Assembly: GCA_017466345.1 (NCBI GenBank)
Contig: JAFTUI010000007.1
Span: 114,112-178,111, forward strand
Direction: 5' to 3'
From: Tidjanibacter sp.
GTDB taxonomy: Bacteria; Bacteroidota; Bacteroidia; Bacteroidales; Rikenellaceae
DNA length: 64,000 bases
Below the pieces are notes generated by a model. It did no database searches and was not told the origin of the DNA. It was given only the letters and a program-made list of their open reading frames with translations. Position 1 is the stretch's first letter; every line of letters starts with the position of its first letter. Below are positions 2,793 through 63,900 of this stretch, one piece after another. The position numbers and the translations under genes were made by a program.

Positions 2793-3410
2793 CTACTTTT
2801 CAATGATTACATAAGTACCTTTTGCACCGGGAACCGAACCCTTAACCAAGAGAAGGTTGTTCTCGGCAATAACTTTGAGGACTTTAAGGTTCTGAACCTT
2901 AACCCTCTCACCGCCGGTCTGACCGGGCAAGCGTTTGCCCTTGAAGACGCGCGAAGGATACGAAGATGCACCAAGCGAACCAGGTTTACGCTGGCGGTTG
3001 TGCTGACCGTGGGTCTGACCACCTACACCGGCAAAGCCGTGGCGTTTTACAACACCCTGGTAGCCTTTACCTTTCGATACACCCACTACGTCTACCCAGT
3101 CACCCTCCTCGAAGGTGTCTGCAACGGTGAGTGTCTGACCCAGAGTTACCTCATCGAACTCCTTGAACTCCACCAATTTGGCTTTGGGCGATACACCCGA
3201 TTTGCCAAAGTGACCTAACAAGCTTTTGCTGGTGTGCTTTTCACTCTTCTCGCCATAGGCAATCTGAACTGCGGAGTAGCCATCCTTCTCCTCGTTCTTG
3301 ATTTGCGTAACTACACAGGGACCAGCCTCAATAACAGTGCATGGTATATTTTTACCCTCGGCACTGAAAACGGAAGTCATTCCGATTTTTTTTCCAATAA
3401 GTCCTGACAT
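2793..3410 (-). CDS. rplC: 50S ribosomal protein L3 (uL3)
   Basis: L3 is an early assembly protein near the peptidyl transferase centre. The 205-residue product begins [15 protein letters not shown] and contains the signature [19 protein letters not shown] and [20 protein letters not shown] blocks. It is the first gene after an unusual 183-base gap that separates it from rpsJ, unlike the tight spacing elsewhere in the operon. Confidence 0.97.
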
Positions 3411-14201: not shown

Positions 14202-16025
14202 ATGGACAACAACTTTATTGTTTCGGCACGAAAATACCGCCCACAGACCTTCGAGTCAGTGGTGGGGCAGAGTCACGTCACCACAACGCTCAAAAATGCC
14301 ATAGCGCGAGGGCAGTTGGCGCACGCATACCTCTTTTGCGGACCCCGAGGAGTCGGCAAGACCACCTGTGCGCGTATCTTCGCCAAAACCATCAACTGTC
14401 TTAATCCCACCGCCGAGGGCGATGCTTGCGGCGAGTGCGAGTCGTGTCGCAGTTTCGATGAGGGCAGGAGTTTCTCGATTCACGAGCTCGATGCCGCATC
14501 GAACAACTCGGTAGACAACATCCGCGACCTGACGGATCAAGTGAGGGTTCCTCCCCAGATTGGCGAGTACAGCGTCTACATCATCGATGAGGTGCATATG
14601 CTCTCGCAGGCGGCTTTCAACGCCTTCCTCAAAACGCTCGAAGAGCCACCACACCACGCCATTTTCATTCTCGCAACAACCGAGAAGCACAAGATAATAC
14701 CCACCATCCTCTCGCGCTGCCAGATTTACGACTTCCAGCGCATACGCATCGAGGACGCTGTGGAGTACCTCAAACTCATCGCCACACGCGAGGGTGTCGC
14801 TTTCGATGACGAGTCGTTGCACCTTATCGCCCGCAAGGCTGACGGTGGTATGAGGGATGCTCTGTCGATGTTCGACAAGGCGGTGTCGTTCTGCGGCGGC
14901 AAATTGGAGTATAAAGAGGTGGCAGCAACCCTCAACGTGCTCGACTACGACACCTACTTCGGCATTACCGATGCGCTGGTGGCTGGCGACTACAAGAGTG
15001 CGCTGCTGACCTTCGATGAGGTGCTCAAAAAGGGCTTCTCGGGGCAGAGTTTTGCCTCCGGATTGGCTACGCACCTTAGGGATTTGCTGATGTGCAAGGA
15101 GCCTCAGACTATGAGCCTCTTGGAGATTAGCGGCTCGCTGCTCGACCGCTACAAACAGCAGAGCGCACGTTGCGACATAGGTTTCCTCTTTGGTGCTGCG
15201 GCACTCCTCGGCGAGGTCGATGGAGGCTTCCGCACCGCCACCAACCAACGACTGCACGTTGAGTTGGCACTGATGAAACTTGCAGGGCTCGGTCAAAAAA
15301 AAACTCTTGATGTAAGCGACTACCCCTCGCTGCCACCACTCGTCAAGGGCGAGGCAAGCACACCACAGCCCACACAGGCTCAGCAAGTTGCCCCTGCGCT
15401 ACAATCCGCACCACAACCCACCGTTGCGCCCAAGGTGGAGGTTGCTCCCGCACAGCCTGCGGTACCACAGCCTGCACCACAACACACACCACAGCCCGCT
15501 GTTGCGCCCACACCTGCACCCCAAGTGGCACCCCAAGTGGCACCCAATGTAGCGCAAGCTCCCGCTCCTGCCGCAGCAAAGCCCAAGAAGGGGTTGTTTG
15601 GTGGCTCCATAAGTGCCATTATGAGCGGTCAGAAGAGTTCGGAAGAGGAGGAGAAAGTTACCTACTACGACCCCTACGCACAGCAGAAGATAACCAAGGG
15701 TTGGGAGGCTTTTATGGAGCGTATGATGGTGGAGCACCCCCGTATGGGACACGCACTGAAAAAGACCATCGTGAATGGTCACACCCTGGCGCTGACGGTC
15801 ACCACGGAGATTATTCGTGACGAGCTGATGCGCAACCAGAACGAGATAACGGCACTCTTGCAGGAGGCTTGCGGCTTGGAGGGTAGCATTGTGCTCGACA
15901 TTACGGTCAGCACCGCCAAAGAGGATAACACACCACACAGACCGATGGACAAGGTGCGCTTCCTCGTGGAGCAAAACCCCGAACTGAACACGCTGATTCA
16001 GGACCTCGGCTTGGATGTGGAATAG
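14202..16025 (+). CDS. dnaX: DNA polymerase III subunits gamma/tau
   Basis: Clamp-loader ATPase that loads the sliding clamp and tethers the replicase. The 607-residue protein has Walker A GPRGVGKT (47-54), a zinc module with Cys66, Cys76, Cys79 and Cys82, and a Walker B-type DEVH (129-132). After about residue 390 a Pro/Ala/Gln-rich linker leads to a tau-type C-terminal domain. I chose the ATG at 14202 (MDNNFIVSARKYRPQTF) over a GTG at 14169, which would overlap the promoter box. Only the full tau form is evident; I saw no clear slippery frameshift signal. Confidence 0.96.
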   Translation: MDNNFIVSARKYRPQTFESVVGQSHVTTTLKNAIARGQLAHAYLFCGPRGVGKTTCARIFAKTINCLNPTAEGDACGECESCRSFDEGRSFSIHELDAASNNSVDNIRDLTDQVRVPPQIGEYSVYIIDEVHMLSQAAFNAFLKTLEEPPHHAIFILATTEKHKIIPTILSRCQIYDFQRIRIEDAVEYLKLIATREGVAFDDESLHLIARKADGGMRDALSMFDKAVSFCGGKLEYKEVAATLNVLDYDTYFGITDALVAGDYKSALLTFDEVLKKGFSGQSFASGLATHLRDLLMCKEPQTMSLLEISGSLLDRYKQQSARCDIGFLFGAAALLGEVDGGFRTATNQRLHVELALMKLAGLGQKKTLDVSDYPSLPPLVKGEASTPQPTQAQQVAPALQSAPQPTVAPKVEVAPAQPAVPQPAPQHTPQPAVAPTPAPQVAPQVAPNVAQAPAPAAAKPKKGLFGGSISAIMSGQKSSEEEEKVTYYDPYAQQKITKGWEAFMERMMVEHPRMGHALKKTIVNGHTLALTVTTEIIRDELMRNQNEITALLQEACGLEGSIVLDITVSTAKEDNTPHRPMDKVRFLVEQNPELNTLIQDLGLDVE

Positions 16026-16032
16026 GTTCGAA

Positions 16033-16440
16033 TTGAGAATTGACAAAACTTTGTTTTGTCTAAAATGCTCCCGCTCGGCATAGTCTGCGAGCAGCCTCTG
16101 CCCTCGCTTACTCGCATTTGCGAAAATTGAAAATTGAGAATTGAGAATTATTGTCTTTCTTGTTTTTCTTGCAAGAGTAGCAGGGGTAACAGGGATAACA
16201 GGGGTAATAGGGGTAATAGGGGAGTTTGAGAGGAGATTTTTTCGGTGGTGTGTGATGCTCCGAAGGAGCAGAAATGAGGAAAACACCATCTCTCAAACTT
16301 GTTTGAAAGAGATTGGTGGTTTACTCATTTCAGACCTGCCGAAGGCAGTCACACCACCGCAAGGGCTGCACTAAAAGTTTTTGGGCGACTTTTTATAAAA
16401 AGTCGCGAAGAAAAAGTCGCGAAAGAAAAAGAACAACAAA
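16033..16440 (+). repeat. family A element copy 1, leader of tyrS
   Basis: It fills the dnaX-tyrS spacer. In order it holds a GACAAAAC/GTTTTGTC hairpin (16041-16059), a shared 100-base tail, 9-bp tandem units of the GGGGTAACA type (about 16186-16222), a four-way junction (16243-16359), TAAAAGTTTTTGG, and a U5/A5 hairpin (16385-16406). Junction stems: P1 CGGTGGTGTG/CACACCACCG (16243-16252 with 16350-16359), P2 GCTCC-GAA-GGAGC (16257-16269), P3 from GAAATGAG (16271) to CTCATTTC (16331), P4 CTGCC-GAA-GGCAG (16336-16348). It is nearly identical to copy 2 upstream of folE. Confidence 0.85.
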
Positions 16441-16462
16441 CAATAATAATAAAGGAAGAAAG

Positions 16463-17758
16463 ATGGCAAATTTTGTAGAAGAACTCAGGTGGAGGGGTAT
16501 GATTCAGGATATGATGCCCGGTACTGAGGAGCAACTCAAAAAGGAGATGACAACCGCCTACCTCGGCATTGACCCTACGGCAGACTCGCTGCACATTGGT
16601 CACTTGGTAGGTGTTATGATACTGAAACACTTGCAGAGGTGTGGTCACAAACCCATCGCCCTGGTGGGTGGTGCTACGGGTATGATTGGCGACCCTTCGG
16701 GCAAGTCGCAGGAGCGCAACCTCTTGGACGAGGCTACTTTGCGCCACAATCAGGAGGCCATTAAGGCTCAACTTGCACGCCTTATCGACTTCGATAGCGA
16801 TGCCCCCAATGCAGCAATCCTTGTGAACAACTACGACTGGATGAAGGAGTTCTCGTTCTTGGAGTTCATTCGCGATGTGGGCAAACACATTACCGTTAAC
16901 TATATGATGGCTAAGGACTCGGTGAAGAAGAGGTTCAATGGCGAGGGCGATGGTATGTCCTTCACGGAGTTTACCTACCAGTTAGTGCAGGGCTACGACT
17001 TCTACCACCTCTACGAGGCTCACGGCTGCAAGTTACAACTTGGCGGTAGCGACCAGTGGGGTAACATCACCACCGGTACGGAACTTATCCGCCGCAAGAA
17101 GGGTGCTACGGATGCTTATGCGCTAACCTGCCCCCTGATTAAGAAGGCTGACGGCACGAAGTTTGGCAAGACCGAGAGTGGTAATATCTGGCTCGATGCT
17201 CGCTACACTTCGCCCTATAAGTTCTATCAATTCTGGCTCAATGTGAGTGACGAGGATGCCAAGAGTTATATCAAAATCTTCACATTCCTTGACAAGGAGA
17301 CCATCGACAACCTCATTGCCGAGCACGAGGCAGCACCCCACGAGCGCAAACTCCAAAAACGCCTGGCAGAGGAGATTACAGTTATGATTCACTCGCGCGA
17401 GGAGTACGAGAAGGCTGTGGCAGCAAGTGGTATTCTCTTTGGCTCGAATGCCGGCGAGGCTCTGAAATCCATCGATGAGGCGACCTTCTTACAGGTCTTT
17501 GAGGGTGTTCCACAGTTCAAAATTGCCGCTTCTGAGTTGGCTGAGGGCGTAGATTTCCTCTCGCTGTGTGTTGAGAAAGCCCCCACATTCCCCTCGAAGG
17601 GCGAACTGAGGAAACTCATTCAGGGCGGCGGCGTGTCGCTCAACAAGGAGAAGGTTACGGACCCCTATATGGTTGTGAACAACGACAACCTCATTGCAGG
17701 CAAGTATCTCTTGGTGCAGAAGGGTAAGAAGAACTACTACCTCCTCATTGCGGAGTAG
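16463..17758 (+). CDS. tyrS: tyrosyl-tRNA synthetase
   Basis: Class I synthetase that charges tRNA-Tyr. The 431-residue protein has HIGH (44-47), the tyrosine pocket with [11 protein letters not shown], and the KMSKS-equivalent KFGKT (233-237), with a C-terminal S4-type RNA-binding domain. I chose the ATG at 16463; an in-frame extension to 16313 would be translated from the repeat element and has no family likeness. The leader is a family A repeat that ends in a purine-rich GGAAGAAAG just before the start. The gene converges with folE on a shared terminator. Confidence 0.96.
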
Positions 17759-17781
17759 CAGCCACACTATACCTATATATA

Positions 17782-17820
17782 CAACAACGCCCTGCACTTG
17801 GAGTGTGCAGGGCGTTGTTG
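17782..17820. terminator. bidirectional terminator between tyrS and folE
   Basis: CAACAACGCCCTGCAC (17782-17797) pairs perfectly over 16 bases with GTGCAGGGCGTTGTTG (17805-17820) around a 7-base loop. It sits between two converging genes, so it probably serves both. Confidence 0.85.
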
Positions 17821-17866
17821 TATTATGGCTCGGGGCTAATGTAACGTATGTTTCGCAAAAAACACG

Positions 17867-18463
17867 TTAGTGCAGTTTTGCCCCTATGAGTTCGAGGAAC
17901 TCTTGGCGTGTTTCGTGGTGGTTGAGGAAAGCTCCGCTGAAAGCCGAGGTTGTTGTTATGGAGTTCTGCTTCTGCACACCCCTCATCTGCATACACATAT
18001 GCGCAGCCTCAATAACCACAGCCACACCCAGAGGGTTGAGCGTCTCCTGTATGCAGTCGCGAATCTCCATAGTGAGCCTCTCCTGCACCTGCAAACGGCG
18101 AGCAAAACTCTCCACACAGCGGGGAATCTTCGACAAGCCAACAATCTGACCATTGGGGATATAGGCAATGTGAGCCTTCCCATAGAAGGGTAACATATGG
18201 TGCTCACACATCGAATATAGTTCTATGTCCTTCACAAGTACCATCTGGCGATAATCCTCCTTGAAAATCGCCGAGCGCAAAATTTCAGCAGGCTCCTCAG
18301 CATAGCCCTTAGTCAAAAATTGCATACACTTGGCAACCCTCTCGGGGGTCTTAACAAGCCCCTCGCGCTCGGGGTCCTCACCCAACAGGCGCAATATCGC
18401 CTCGTAGTGCTCCATAAGTTCCGCCGTAACCTCTGGCGAATAAATCTCTTCTCGTTTGTACAT
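17867..18463 (-). CDS. folE: GTP cyclohydrolase I
   Basis: Converts GTP to 7,8-dihydroneopterin triphosphate, the entry to folate and to queuosine-type pteridine routes. The 198-residue protein has zinc ligands Cys86 and His89 in CEHH (86-89) and Cys157, and the substrate-binding segments [24 protein letters not shown] and [16 protein letters not shown]. The length is typical of FolE type IA. Other pterin-route genes in the window are folK (25526-26011) and queD (47941-48384), but they are not in an operon with it. A family A element lies in its leader. Confidence 0.96.
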
Positions 18464-18479
18464 TTTATGTTAGTGTTTT

Positions 18480-18898
18480 TAGTCTTCCTTTTTTTCGCAC
18501 CTTTTTCTTCGCACCTTTTTATAAAAAGTCGCCTTTTTCGCACCTTTTTGTAAAAAGGTGCTACCAAAAACTTTTAGTGTAGCCTTTGCGGTGGTGTGAC
18601 TGCCTTGCGGCAGGTCTGAAATGAGTAAACCACCAATCTCTTTCAAACAAGTTTGAGAGATGGTGTTTTCCTCATTTCTGCTCCTTCGGAGCATCACACA
18701 CCACCGAAAAATCTCCTTTCAAACTCCCCTATTACCCCTGTTATCCCTGTTACCCCTGCTACTCTTGCAAGAAAAACAAGAAAGACAAGAATTTTCAATT
18801 TTCAATTTTCGCAAATGCGAGTAAGCGAGGGCAGAGGCTGCTCGCAGACTATGCCGAGCGGGAGCATTTTAGACAAAACAAAGTTTTGTCAATTTCCA
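18480..18898 (-). repeat. family A element copy 2, leader of folE
   Basis: It spans the whole spacer from the stop codon of the DUF4296-type gene (18889) almost to the folE start. On the minus strand the order is the same as copy 1, which lies inverted 2 kb away: GACAAAAC hairpin, shared tail, 9-bp units (three against four in copy 1), four-way junction (18706-18589), TAAAAGTTTTTGG, then two successive U5/A5 hairpins with different arms (GCACC and GCGAC). The P4 loop differs from copy 1 (GCAA against GAA) but the stem is kept. Confidence 0.85.
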
Positions 18899-20082
18899 AT
18901 TCCCAGAACAACATCTATGGAATCGGCAACAGCGCGTTTGTCCATAGCCAGACTATCCAACAACTCTGCTCTCAGTGTTAGCGAGTCGCCAAGGAGCACC
19001 AACGAGTCCGCCTCAGCCACATTCCTCAGGTGGGCTACTTGTCGCAGGGAGTCGTTGCGGTACCATTTCTTGGCGGCGGCTGTGCGCAGTTTATCGCTCT
19101 TTTGGAGGAGTTTATCAACCTCTTCACGCAATTTCACACCCTCGCCCACGAGCGAGTCGGCGCACCCCCTAAGACTCTCTGCGTGAGCCATATCAACCGA
19201 GTCTATACGCAACCACACCGTATCGTGGGGCAGCATAGGAGGCACAGCGTCCAAATAGCCACGCACCCTTATGGAGTCGTTGAAGAGCAGCATTGGTCGG
19301 AAGTGCAACGTGGAGTCCATCTTAGCCAGCGCGACCTCCGAAGGTGGTAGGTATACTATGCGAACCGAGTCGAAGACAATATGTGGCTCGTCTTCGCGGC
19401 GCGTATAGTCGGCAAGCGTCAGGCGATACTCCACAGCCCCCGTTTTGGGTTTGATGGTTGTGGTATAGCGCAGCGAGTCATCGTGAGTGAGGTTATTGCG
19501 GTTGTAATATATGCGTGCACCCTCCTTGTCGTATACTTCGTGGGTGGATTGCAGGCGGGTGTTCTTATCGAGGGTGTCGATATAGTAGTGGTAGCTCACA
19601 ATATACTCGCCCCTATCGTGGATGGGCAACGATAGTTGCAGTTTGGTGGTGTCTTTCAGCCTATTAACAGCGATATGCTCCATCCAGAGCACCTCTTGGC
19701 TGCACTGTGCCTTAGCCAACGAATCCACATATCGCAGGTTGCGCAACTTCTGCTCGTAGCCCTCGGCAAGGCTTTCGAGCGAAGCGATAGATGCTTCTAT
19801 AACATCGCCGAGGCGTGCGCTCTTGCGTTTTTGGAAGTTGGCGAGGGTGTTGAAAAAGTCATTCTGGGTGTAGCCATAGCGCTCCAAGATGGGAGTGTAT
19901 ATGTCCAAGCTGTCGGTCTTCATCCTCTCGGCATTGGCGTAGGCATTCACAAGGAACATCTCGCGAGCGATACGCTCCAAGTCGCTGTCGGGAATGATAG
20001 TCTTGCGCGAACAACCCGCTCCACCGAGGCAAAGTGCCGCCAAAATCACCACAAGGAGTACTCTATTTATTGCGTGTTTCAT
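18889..20082 (-). CDS. DUF4296-type lipoprotein with long C-terminal domain
   Basis: A 397-residue envelope protein. The signal peptide ends in a lipobox (LCLGGAGC, Cys24). Residues about 30-130 follow the DUF4296 pattern (IPDSDLERIAREMFLVNAYAN, then YGYTQNDFFNTL). The rest is an unassigned soluble region with a long helical, probably coiled-coil stretch near 325-385. It overlaps the stop of the FtsX-type permease gene by 20 bases, so the two are likely co-translated and may act together at the envelope. The stop codon lies at the edge of the family A repeat. Confidence 0.75.
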   Translation of the reverse strand: MKHAINRVLLVVILAALCLGGAGCSRKTIIPDSDLERIAREMFLVNAYANAERMKTDSLDIYTPILERYGYTQNDFFNTLANFQKRKSARLGDVIEASIASLESLAEGYEQKLRNLRYVDSLAKAQCSQEVLWMEHIAVNRLKDTTKLQLSLPIHDRGEYIVSYHYYIDTLDKNTRLQSTHEVYDKEGARIYYNRNNLTHDDSLRYTTTIKPKTGAVEYRLTLADYTRREDEPHIVFDSVRIVYLPPSEVALAKMDSTLHFRPMLLFNDSIRVRGYLDAVPPMLPHDTVWLRIDSVDMAHAESLRGCADSLVGEGVKLREEVDKLLQKSDKLRTAAAKKWYRNDSLRQVAHLRNVAEADSLVLLGDSLTLRAELLDSLAMDKRAVADSIDVVLGIGN

Positions 20083-21721: not shown

Positions 21722-21945
21722 TTGTTTTGTTTCTTCTTTCTCCGCTTTTTGTAAAAAGCGGAACCAAAAACTTTTAGTGTAGCCTTTGCGGTGAGGTGTG
21801 GCTATCTTTCGCAGATAGTCTGGCAGTCGAACTGCCAGCCCACCATCAAACGAGTTTGAGTGGGCTGACACTTCGCCCGCCTCTCTCCTTCGGAGAGCCT
21901 CGCACCTCCCCGAAAAAAGACGTCTCTCAAACCCCTACTCATATA
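21722..21945 (-). repeat. family A element copy 3, leader of rbfA
   Basis: Junction core 21912-21789 on the minus strand. Stem P1 is a GGGGAGGTG/CACCTCACC pairing, P2 is CTCTCC-GAA-GGAGAG, and P3 contains CAGCCCAC/GTGGGCTG capped by CAAAC/GTTTG. P4 is CTATCT/AGATAG. These arms differ from copies 1 and 2 but the layout is the same. The U5/A5 hairpin before the start uses CCGCTTTTT arms. Confidence 0.82.
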
Positions 21946-25069: not shown

Positions 25070-25235
25070 TTTTTATAAAAAGTCGCCTTTTTTCGCACCT
25101 TTTTGTAAAAAGGTGCTACCAAAAACTTTTAGTGCACCAACCAATCGTGGTACTACCTACCGCTTTGCTTAGGAGTGGCTTCGGAGAGCCTCACACCTCC
25201 CCGAAAAAAAGACTCCTCTCAAACCTTCCTATTAT
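25070..25235 (-). repeat. family A element copy 4 (composite, junction incomplete)
   Basis: On the minus strand it begins with GGTTTGAGAGGAG and the P1/P2 left half (GGGGAGGTGTGAGGCTCTCC). It then switches to a different core (CCACTCCTAAGCAAAGCGG, TAGTACCACGATTGG) shared with 47835-47880 and 57060-57095, and ends with two U5/A5 hairpins (GCACC arms, then GCGAC arms). The switch looks like recombination between two module types. Confidence 0.7.
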
Positions 25236-37109: not shown

Positions 37110-37433
37110 TTGTAAAAAGCGTTCTTTTTCGCACCTTTTTTCGCACCTTTTTGTAAAAAGGTGCTACCAAAAACTTTTCGTGTAGCCCTTGCGGTGAGGT
37201 GTGGCTATCTTTCGCAGATAGTCTGGCAGCCTAAATAGCAGCCCTCTTTCAAACAAGTTTGAGAGGGCTCCTATTTCGTCTGCCACTCTCCTTCGGAGAG
37301 CCCACACCTCCCCGAAAAAATCTCCTCTCAAACTCCCCTATTACCCCTGTTATCCCTGTTACCCCTGCTACTCTTGCAAGAAGAACAAGAAAGACAAGAA
37401 TTTTCAATTCTCAATTTTCAATTCTCAATTCTC
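37110..37433 (-). repeat. family A element copy 5, inside the atp operon
   Basis: It lies between atpA and atpG. Junction core 37314-37192 (minus strand): P1 CGGGGAGGTGTGG with CCACACCTCACCG (one mismatch), P2 CTCTCC-GAA-GGAGAG, P3 TGGCAG...CTGCCA, AAATAG...CTATTT, AGCCCTCT...AGAGGGCT and CAAAC/GTTTG, P4 CTATCT/AGATAG. Upstream are 9-bp units and AATTGAGA-type low-complexity repeats (37400-37433). Two U5/A5 hairpins and purine-rich repeats lead into the atpG start. Confidence 0.85.
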
Positions 37434-47600: not shown

Positions 47601-47935
47601 TCTTGTTTTTCTTGCAGGGATAACAAGGGTGGCAGGTGTAACAAGGATTATAGGGGAGTTTGAGAGCAGTTTTTTCGGTGGTGTGGATACTCCGAAGGAG
47701 CAGAAATGAGGAAAGCACCATCTCTCAAACTTGTTTGAAAGAGATAGGTGGTTTGCTCATTTCAGACCTGCCGCAAGGCAGTCACGCCACCGCAAGGGCG
47801 TCAGAGTGACGCTTTTGTGCAGGTGGCTCCGAAGCCACTCCTAAGCAAAACGGTGGGTAGTACCACGATTGGTTGGTGCACGAAAAGTTTTTGGTTCCGC
47901 TTTTTACAAAAAGCGGAGAAGAAAGTCGCGAAATA
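47601..47935 (+). repeat. family A element copy 9 with no gene behind it
   Basis: It has 9-bp units, junction core 47676-47792 (P1 CGGTGGTGTG with CACGCCACCG, one G-U pair; P2 with GAA loop; P3 with CAAAC/GTTTG; P4 CTGCC/GGCAG), a second core (CCACTCCTAAGCAAAACGG, TAGTACCACGATTGG) and the CCGCTTTTT/AAAAAGCGG hairpin. Unlike the other copies it points at the 3' end of queD, so it precedes no start codon. It may mark a lost gene or show that the element also inserts elsewhere. Confidence 0.75.
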
Positions 47936-57004: not shown

Positions 57005-57105
57005 TTTTCTTTTTTCGCACCTTTTTGTAAAAAGGTGCTGCCAAAAACTTTTCGTGTACCAACCAATAGAGGTACTACCCACCGTTTTGCTTCGGAGTGG
57101 CAAGG
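57005..57105 (-). repeat. family A element copy 6 (short form)
   Basis: The four-way junction is missing. On the minus strand it holds the alternative core (CCACTCCGAAGCAAAACGG, TAGTACCTCTATTGG), then AAAAGTTTTTGG, then a U5/A5 hairpin with CACC/GGTG arms just before the start codon at 56994. Confidence 0.75.
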
Positions 57106-58699: not shown

Positions 58700-58768
58700 T
58701 TCTTTTTTCTCCGCTTTCTTCTCCGCTTTTTGTAAAAAGCGGAACCAAAAACTTTTATGCGATACTAC
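58700..58768 (-). repeat. family A element copy 7 (hairpin end only)
   Basis: Only the gene-proximal end is present. On the minus strand: GCGATAC-GTA-GTATCGC hairpin, TAAAAGTTTTTGG, CCGCTTTTT/AAAAAGCGG hairpin, then two copies of AAGCGGAGAA before the MATE start codon. Confidence 0.75.
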
Positions 58769-63649: not shown

Positions 63650-63900
63650 TCTCCGCTTTTTGTAAAAAGCGGAACCAAAAACTTTTAGTGTAGCCTTTGC
63701 GGTGAGGTGTGACTGCCTTTGCAGGCAGATTTGCAGTCGAACTGCCAGCCCACTTTCAAACGAGTTTGAGTGAGCTGACACTTCGCCTGCCTCTCTCCTT
63801 CGGAGAGCCTCACACCTCCCCGAAAAAAGACTCCTCTCAAACTCCCCTGTAATCCTTGTTACACCTGCTACCCTTGTTATCCCTGCAAGAAAAACAAGAT
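63650..63900 (-). repeat. family A element copy 8, leader of gtrA
   Basis: Junction core 63822-63700 (minus strand): P1 GGGGAGGTGTG with CACACCTCACC, P2 CTCTCC-GAA-GGAGAG, P3 with GCAG/CTGC outer and CAAAC/GTTTG inner pairs, P4 CTGCCT-GCAA-AGGCAG. The hairpin before the start uses CCGCTTTTT arms. Four 9-bp units lie at about 63845-63890. Confidence 0.85.

Follow-up and report, generated by a model that had tools for sequence, protein, structure and literature searches.

A family of dispersed four-way-junction repeats in Rikenellaceae, conserved in fold and located 3' of genes: a candidate non-autonomous mobile element

In integron attC sites one defined strand folds as a single strand, core boxes at the base of the stem define the site and are recombined by an integron integrase, and sites can stand in tandem arrays. 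RU-1 is the repeat otherwise called ERIC, and Porphyromonas gingivalis belongs to the same order as the Rikenellaceae host studied here. REPs are dispersed palindromic repeats found behind coding regions, in gaps whose flanking genes run in one direction or converge; units measure 20-40 bp and carry GTAG or CGTC tags, the GTAG REPs often lie near a RAYT gene, and REPs are thought to be mobile (PMC3733652). BrickBuilt, a MITE of P. gingivalis with 19 intergenic copies in one strain, is a composite whose defining parts are a 23-nt minisatellite and the associated leader and tail subunits (PMC4596501). Enterobacterial RU-1 and RU-2 are described as 127- and 168-bp intergenic MITE-like repeats (PMC2759123). 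A survey of candidate structured RNAs from the human microbiome lists 250 palindromic motifs among 3161, with Bacteroidetes examples of 80-132 bp (PMC8040213).

The family described here is a new, well-defined one of this known general kind; what sets it apart is that its structure is unusually constrained and that it also lives at tRNA ends. It occupies the same habitat as REPs and BIMEs and could plausibly fold as RNA, as they can. As with BrickBuilt, copies are intergenic and a minisatellite is present, in our case of GTAACAGGG type and 5' of several copies; the abstract and outline of the BrickBuilt account mention no four-way covarying core. RU-1 and RU-2, as described, resemble our family as intergenic MITE-like repeats and belong to another clade. 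With attC sites the family shares a folded single strand of defined polarity, a similar size and the possibility of tandem arrays, but here the tip is conserved rather than boxes at the stem base, and there are no gene cassettes. Our literature searches found no published description of the element.

The window, by which we mean the whole 64,000-nucleotide stretch that was analysed, comes from a Tidjanibacter sp. contig (JAFTUI010000007.1) and contains six full copies. These had been located by eye in a first-pass annotation, and a model built exclusively from copies in other genomes (R2) finds exactly the same six places; at E<=1 its only additional matches in the window are the reverse strands of these copies. 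All six fold into the layout that had been proposed, namely a closing stem (P1), a GAA-loop hairpin (P2), a long arm with a CAAAC/GTTTG tip (P3) and a further hairpin (P4). The features are as follows.

16243..16359, plus strand: four-way element, subfamily 1 (fold; model R2, E 1.6e-19), with arms P1 16243-16252/16350-16359, P2 16256-16270, P3 16271-16331 and P4 16336-16348
16298..16301, plus strand: P3 tip loop CUUG (3' bulge AA at 16307-16308), where conservation across the family is highest
16223..16242, plus strand: conserved 5' piece AGTTTGAGAG..TTTTTT ahead of P1 (copy comparison)
16370..16384, plus strand: 3' module ACTAAAAGTTTTTGG of the 16243 copy
16385..16406, plus strand: module hairpin, CTTTTTATAAAAAG type, of the 16243 copy (from sequence)
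16026..16430 (right edge approximate), plus strand: composite insertion in the dnaX-tyrS gap, missing in relatives
18589..18706, minus strand: four-way element, subfamily 1, ahead of the GTP cyclohydrolase I gene (fold, R2)
21789..21912, minus strand: four-way element, subfamily 2, ahead of rbfA (fold, R2)
37192..37314, minus strand: four-way element, subfamily 2, in the gap separating the ATP synthase alpha gene from the gamma gene (fold, R2)
47676..47792, plus strand: four-way element, subfamily 1, in a convergent gap with an ABC2 membrane protein gene on one side and a PTPS gene on the other (fold, R2)
63700..63822, minus strand: four-way element, subfamily 2, ahead of a GtrA-type gene (fold, R2)
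18564..18578, minus strand: 3' module of the 18589 copy
21764..21778, minus strand: 3' module of the 21789 copy
37167..37181, minus strand: 3' module of the 37192 copy, one mismatch
47880..47894, plus strand: 3' module of the 47676 composite, one mismatch, beyond an intervening 'B' segment
63675..63689, minus strand: 3' module of the 63700 copy
25119..25133, minus strand: core-less module, B type
57041..57055, minus strand: core-less module, B type, one mismatch
58745..58759, minus strand: core-less module, two mismatches

The ACTAAAAGTTTTTGG-type module thus occurs nine times in the window against 0.15 expected, and its three core-less occurrences correspond to short copies, keeping only the gene-proximal end, that had already been noticed. 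The conserved unit exceeds the four-way core, which measures about 110-135 nt, and composites reach about 400 nt. Before P1 lies the AGTTTGAGAG..TTTTTT piece, upstream of which the sequence differs from copy to copy; after the core come CAARGGCTRC, the ACTAAAAGTTTTTGG module and a CTTTTT..AAAAAG hairpin, sometimes with an extra 'B' segment. Module and hairpin lie no more than 200 nt 3' of the core in 23/23 copies of the host genome and in 18/42 copies elsewhere, and the module stands without a core in other genomes as well as in the window. The 9-bp GTAACAGGG-type minisatellite is found at 16177-16222, 18726-18762 and 37335-37371, the first array equalling the second plus one unit. Separately, two segments of about 400 bp (16030-16428 and 18489-18902) are inverted repeats of each other, their pieces 82-100% complementary, and flank the tyrS-folE interval, which homologous recombination between the two would flip.

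The host genome is a 1.82-Mb MAG, estimated to be 95.6% complete. Searching the loci around BLAST matches with nhmmer gave 24 full copies, one of them on a redundant contig, so that 23 are distinct; these form alignment A1. The redundant copy (L025, G000:C28:10101-10302), identical in sequence to the window copy at 37192, was left out. On its 20-kb contig the atpA-element-atpG region known from contig C25 stands a second time, with an identical AtpG match, a duplication that is probably assembly redundancy in the MAG. Also left out was a further diverged copy (L022:3092-3215) scoring 75 bits with R1, the model built from the host's own copies. The division into two subfamilies extends from the window to A1, where 9 copies resemble those at 16k, 18k and 47k and 14 resemble those at 21k, 37k and 63k. 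Subfamily 1 copies are 94-99% identical to the 16243 copy, and one of the 14 subfamily-2-like copies (L027) combines a subfamily 2 5' end with a subfamily 1 3' end.

The arms covary, as had been suspected from the window copies. In A1, 91.9% of the cells pair and both partners vary in 19 of 49 pairs, against 42-50% of cells and 3-8 pairs in controls with slid partners. Relatives in other genomes have the same layout with stems that are almost entirely different. In a wider alignment of 33 distinct copies from other genomes (A6), which was guided by the R1 structure and leans towards it, 94.4% of the cells pair and both partners vary in 46/49 pairs; covariation scores 0.808 here, while shuffled partners give 0.208 and slid partners 0.108-0.137. 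A6 was used in place of a MAFFT alignment (A4), from which RNAalifold recovered just 15 pairs because the arms were misaligned; the E cut-off removed antisense matches and the copies L178 and L193 from A6. An independent check on the fold is provided by R2, which recovers all six window copies with E values of 1e-17 to 1e-21. P1 forms inverted ends, the feature sought as terminal inverted repeats in a MITE of a DDE transposon, but its sequence varies freely across genera.

The P3 tip behaves differently from the stems. In 34 distinct rows from other genomes, which were picked by a tip pattern, TCAA[AG]CT[TC]G[TC]TTGA (as RNA, UCAAR-CUYG-YUUGA) with a 3' bulge of one or two bases is near-constant, its innermost pair swapping A-U for G-C. 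The tip is more variable in 28 low-copy loci, four of which fall outside the pattern.

The folding strand is the plus strand, that is, the one with the module at its 3' end. G.T outnumbers A.C in stem cells by 29 to 3 over 41 hand-chosen pairs in the 23 host copies and by 60 to 17 in the 34 others. RNAfold energies are lower on this strand for 21/23 host copies and 25/28 low-copy loci, and the energy-based preference is weak in other multi-copy genomes (21/34). P2 loops on the plus strand are of GNA or GNNA type in 23/23 host copies and 35/42 copies elsewhere, and P4 loops in just 16/23 and 23/42; on the minus strand of the same 42 copies only 6/105 loops are of this type, and in the low-copy set the counts are 31/75 on the plus and 1/70 on the minus strand. 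GNA triloops are unusually stable in DNA. The loop preference hints that single-stranded DNA is the folded form, without proving it.

The distribution of the family is patchy. Within the genus, some part of the element and module is matched in 11/24 genomes, the host included. R1 matches 18/151 family genomes (again with the host) in 4/22 genera, with 19 and 7 matches in two other genomes; in an order-wide sample it matched 0/246 other genomes under strict filters, with the best 14 candidates scored per genome. R2 matches 73/269 Rikenellaceae genomes in 7/22 genera, a figure that includes the host and the genomes from which R2 was built. R2 copy counts per genome are lower bounds, since the best 13 candidates were scored in each, and its agreement with 38/38 low-copy genomes concerns genomes picked because the R2 survey had already found them. 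Phage and plasmid collections gave zero matches to the element, the exact module pattern was not found in viral contigs, and the exact family A 3' end plus module occurs in no other record of a genome-contig collection with the host left out.

The impression that no named element fits agrees with Rfam release 15, where the window has zero matches at gathering score and 41 related loci give only tRNA and tmRNA; a permissive scan of 15950-18950 returned 7 matches, all far below the gathering scores of their families. Two observations concern the module by itself. With its hairpin it is present exactly in two contigs of Candidatus Acutalibacter, a member of the Firmicutes and distant from Rikenellaceae (L068 4557-4590, L087 6541-6574). 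In genome RGIG981 it forms a tandem array of 91-bp period, with three copies in the locus (L072 3993-4207).

The relation to genes was assessed with a custom ORF scorer. Host copies were classed on strong calls only, which places L027 in a convergent gap; exceptions were rechecked with ARAGORN, ORF lists and Pfam. Of the 23 distinct host copies, 13 lie in tandem gaps, all in sense orientation, 9 in convergent gaps, and one has no upstream call. One of the tandem copies had appeared divergent and has a tRNA-Arg upstream on the same strand; the other 12 are tandem sense. Among 40 copies in 12 other genomes, where some calls score weakly (for example upstream of L188), 28 are convergent, 6 tandem sense, 4 tandem antisense and 2 incomplete. 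Divergent gaps hold 0 of the 63 copies examined. Eight of the nine host convergent partners were scanned and six have a Pfam match, as do nine downstream partners of host tandem copies outside the window. In the low-copy loci, orientation was assessed for tRNAs only. Because copies are found in convergent and tandem gaps and never in divergent ones, we take the habitat to be the 3' side of genes. A replication-strand bias was set aside, as both orientations occur in the window (two plus, four minus).

These positions bear on the initial view of the copies as leaders of unrelated genes. The downstream genes are indeed unrelated, and 13 host copies in tandem gaps do precede a gene; this position is not defining, since 9/23 host copies lead nothing, and it is peculiar to the tandem gaps of the host genome. 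A cis-regulatory leader, riboswitch-like or an attenuator, would fit the fact that all 13 tandem copies precede a co-oriented gene, whose called start is in most cases no more than about 160 nt away, and as all 13 point at the next gene start a local effect on those genes is conceivable. As an account of the family it is nevertheless scarcely credible: convergent gaps hold 9/23 host and 28/40 other copies, no common function links the downstream genes, and neither the element nor its surroundings show enrichment of a Bacteroidota promoter motif. In relatives, moreover, the gaps before tyrS and atpG exist without the element. As a general rule, leaders or riboswitches are rejected on the grounds of gene orientation and empty sites.

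At tyrS and atpG the leader interpretation in fact gives way to insertion. The eight relatives in which the dnaX-tyrS gap was read have neither core nor module there, and a ninth (G016) has module and hairpin only. Between atpA and atpG, 15 relatives have a gap of 27-103 nt; in the host it measures 399 nt. Since the corresponding gaps are empty or short, both copies are insertions of this lineage, the second of them placed in sense orientation within what is normally an operon.

The main rival to a mobile element is a transcribed structured RNA. It could act in mRNAs and tRNA transcripts, as a trailer or in their processing or stability, or be an sRNA released by tRNA 3' processing, with duplication spreading the copies and RNA function maintaining the fold. 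It accords well with the co-oriented gene or tRNA found upstream of 22/22 host copies and 35/39 other copies where this is known, with the sense orientation of the atp copy and of all 13 host tandem copies, and with the excess of G.T over A.C. It accords less well with the patchy distribution and lineage-specific insertions, and with the near balance of sense and antisense (6 versus 4) among tandem copies of other genomes. In addition, 5/22 host copies scanned (one of them a duplicate) have an intrinsic-terminator-like hairpin between the upstream stop and the element. We consider a transcribed RNA possible, if on the unlikely side. In one other genome (G019, L193) a copy at 2513-2634 faces the 3' end of a tmRNA gene at 2959-3362, about 325 nt away.

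tRNA genes provide a second habitat at 3' ends. In 9/28 low-copy loci the element begins 0-19 nt past a tRNA on the same strand (Ser, Thr or Gln), and a tenth case follows a tRNA-Thr (L194 in G067). Integration by a tyrosine recombinase at a tRNA 3' end would leave a direct repeat of that end flanking the insert. At L255 the element is flanked by 18 nt that repeat the tRNA-Thr 3' end exactly, and flanking repeats of 11-12 nt occur at L276, L265 and L271; 9/13 tRNA-adjacent copies have no repeat of at least 11 nt, and a control with swapped flanks gave 3/74. Outside the tRNA-adjacent set, 0/76 copies have flanking direct repeats of at least 11 nt, the size at which a target site duplication, as expected for a MITE of a DDE transposon, was looked for. 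Tandem, partly decayed units are apparent by eye at L249 and L273. The tRNA-Ser(GGA) loci of three genera have a common upstream gene and two of them also common downstream genes, including L272, where the element lies 70 nt from the tRNA; such neighbours shared between genera indicate that part of the copies are old and have been inherited vertically, a pattern that a functional RNA would account for as well. After four tRNA-linked copies (L258, L262, L270 and L274) stands a second, similar segment, read by eye as GCAAGGGCCCCxGCGGCxAGCxGAxGGGGAT..CCAATCCC, with an end that resembles the 3' half of a tRNA T-arm.

In six tRNA-Ser-type copies P2 and a following T-run resemble, by eye, an intrinsic terminator inside the element, so that a tRNA promoter would rarely transcribe the full fold; this counts against a transcribed RNA. 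It also raises the question of whether the copies are repeated transcription terminators or gene-boundary insulators, which would be expected between gene ends, where the elements sit. That explanation appears very unlikely, as host cores show by eye no U-tract directly after a stem on either strand, one copy lies in sense between atpA and atpG, and covariation of P1, P3 and P4 would not be needed.

The four-way elements can also be read as predicted folded single-stranded DNA substrates of a putative recombinase: gene-less integron-like cassettes that would enter the 3' ends of tRNA and other genes and be recognised by tip loop and bulge, independently of sequence. If true, this would explain stem bases that are free to change while shape and tip are kept, the strand preference and the GNA/GNNA loops, together with the exact tRNA 3'-end repeat at one copy and the apparent tandem units. 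We regard it as unlikely.

As to the enzyme, the search covered two families, Y1_Tnp and RVT_1. If a RAYT (Y1/HUH) transposase moved the copies, as it does REPs, this would fit the shared habitat and the folded single strand with a bulged tip. Y1_Tnp (PF01797) is, however, found in neither the host genome nor any of 14 carriers, mostly incomplete MAGs, so that 15 genomes have no Y1 transposase match, whereas 5/14 control genomes are positive. The unit also differs, being a core of about 110-135 nt that is closed by a stem and carries three hairpins, in place of a 20-40 bp hairpin, and we judge this relationship highly improbable. Mobilisation by reverse transcriptase was rejected: within the genus RVT_1 occurs in just 4/24 genomes, and both the module and the tip motif are absent from about 1.5 kb on each side of those four loci. 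The only RVT_1 match of the host (L129), likewise with neither motif nearby, looks retron-like from its translation.

We therefore return to the mobile-element reading. Copies are dispersed and have inserted in a lineage-specific manner in two places; their structure persists across genera with an asymmetry between strands and a conserved tip, and they lie 3' of genes. On balance we lean towards a small, gene-less, non-autonomous mobile element that is recognised through its single-stranded fold. The plus strand would fold into the four-way junction, a trans-acting enzyme would recognise that single-stranded fold, including the conserved P3 tip and its small 3' bulge, and the element would insert just 3' of genes, tRNA 3' ends included, having presumably been amplified separately in several Rikenellaceae lineages. 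Copies go on inserting, and their fold persists although almost all stem bases vary; the simplest explanation is that the fold serves as the recognition signal of a mobilising activity. The selected strand may act as single-stranded DNA or as an RNA intermediate.

Dispersed structured repeats are common. A four-arm shape that covaries across genera in copies still inserting offers a clean natural experiment on how an enzyme recognises its substrate. Two questions become testable: which enzyme reads the UCAAR-CUYG-YUUGA tip with its bulge, and whether the 3' ends of bacterial tRNA genes are entered by small gene-less elements. For annotators, the family is a caution against calling such repeats riboswitches of tyrS, atpG or folE.
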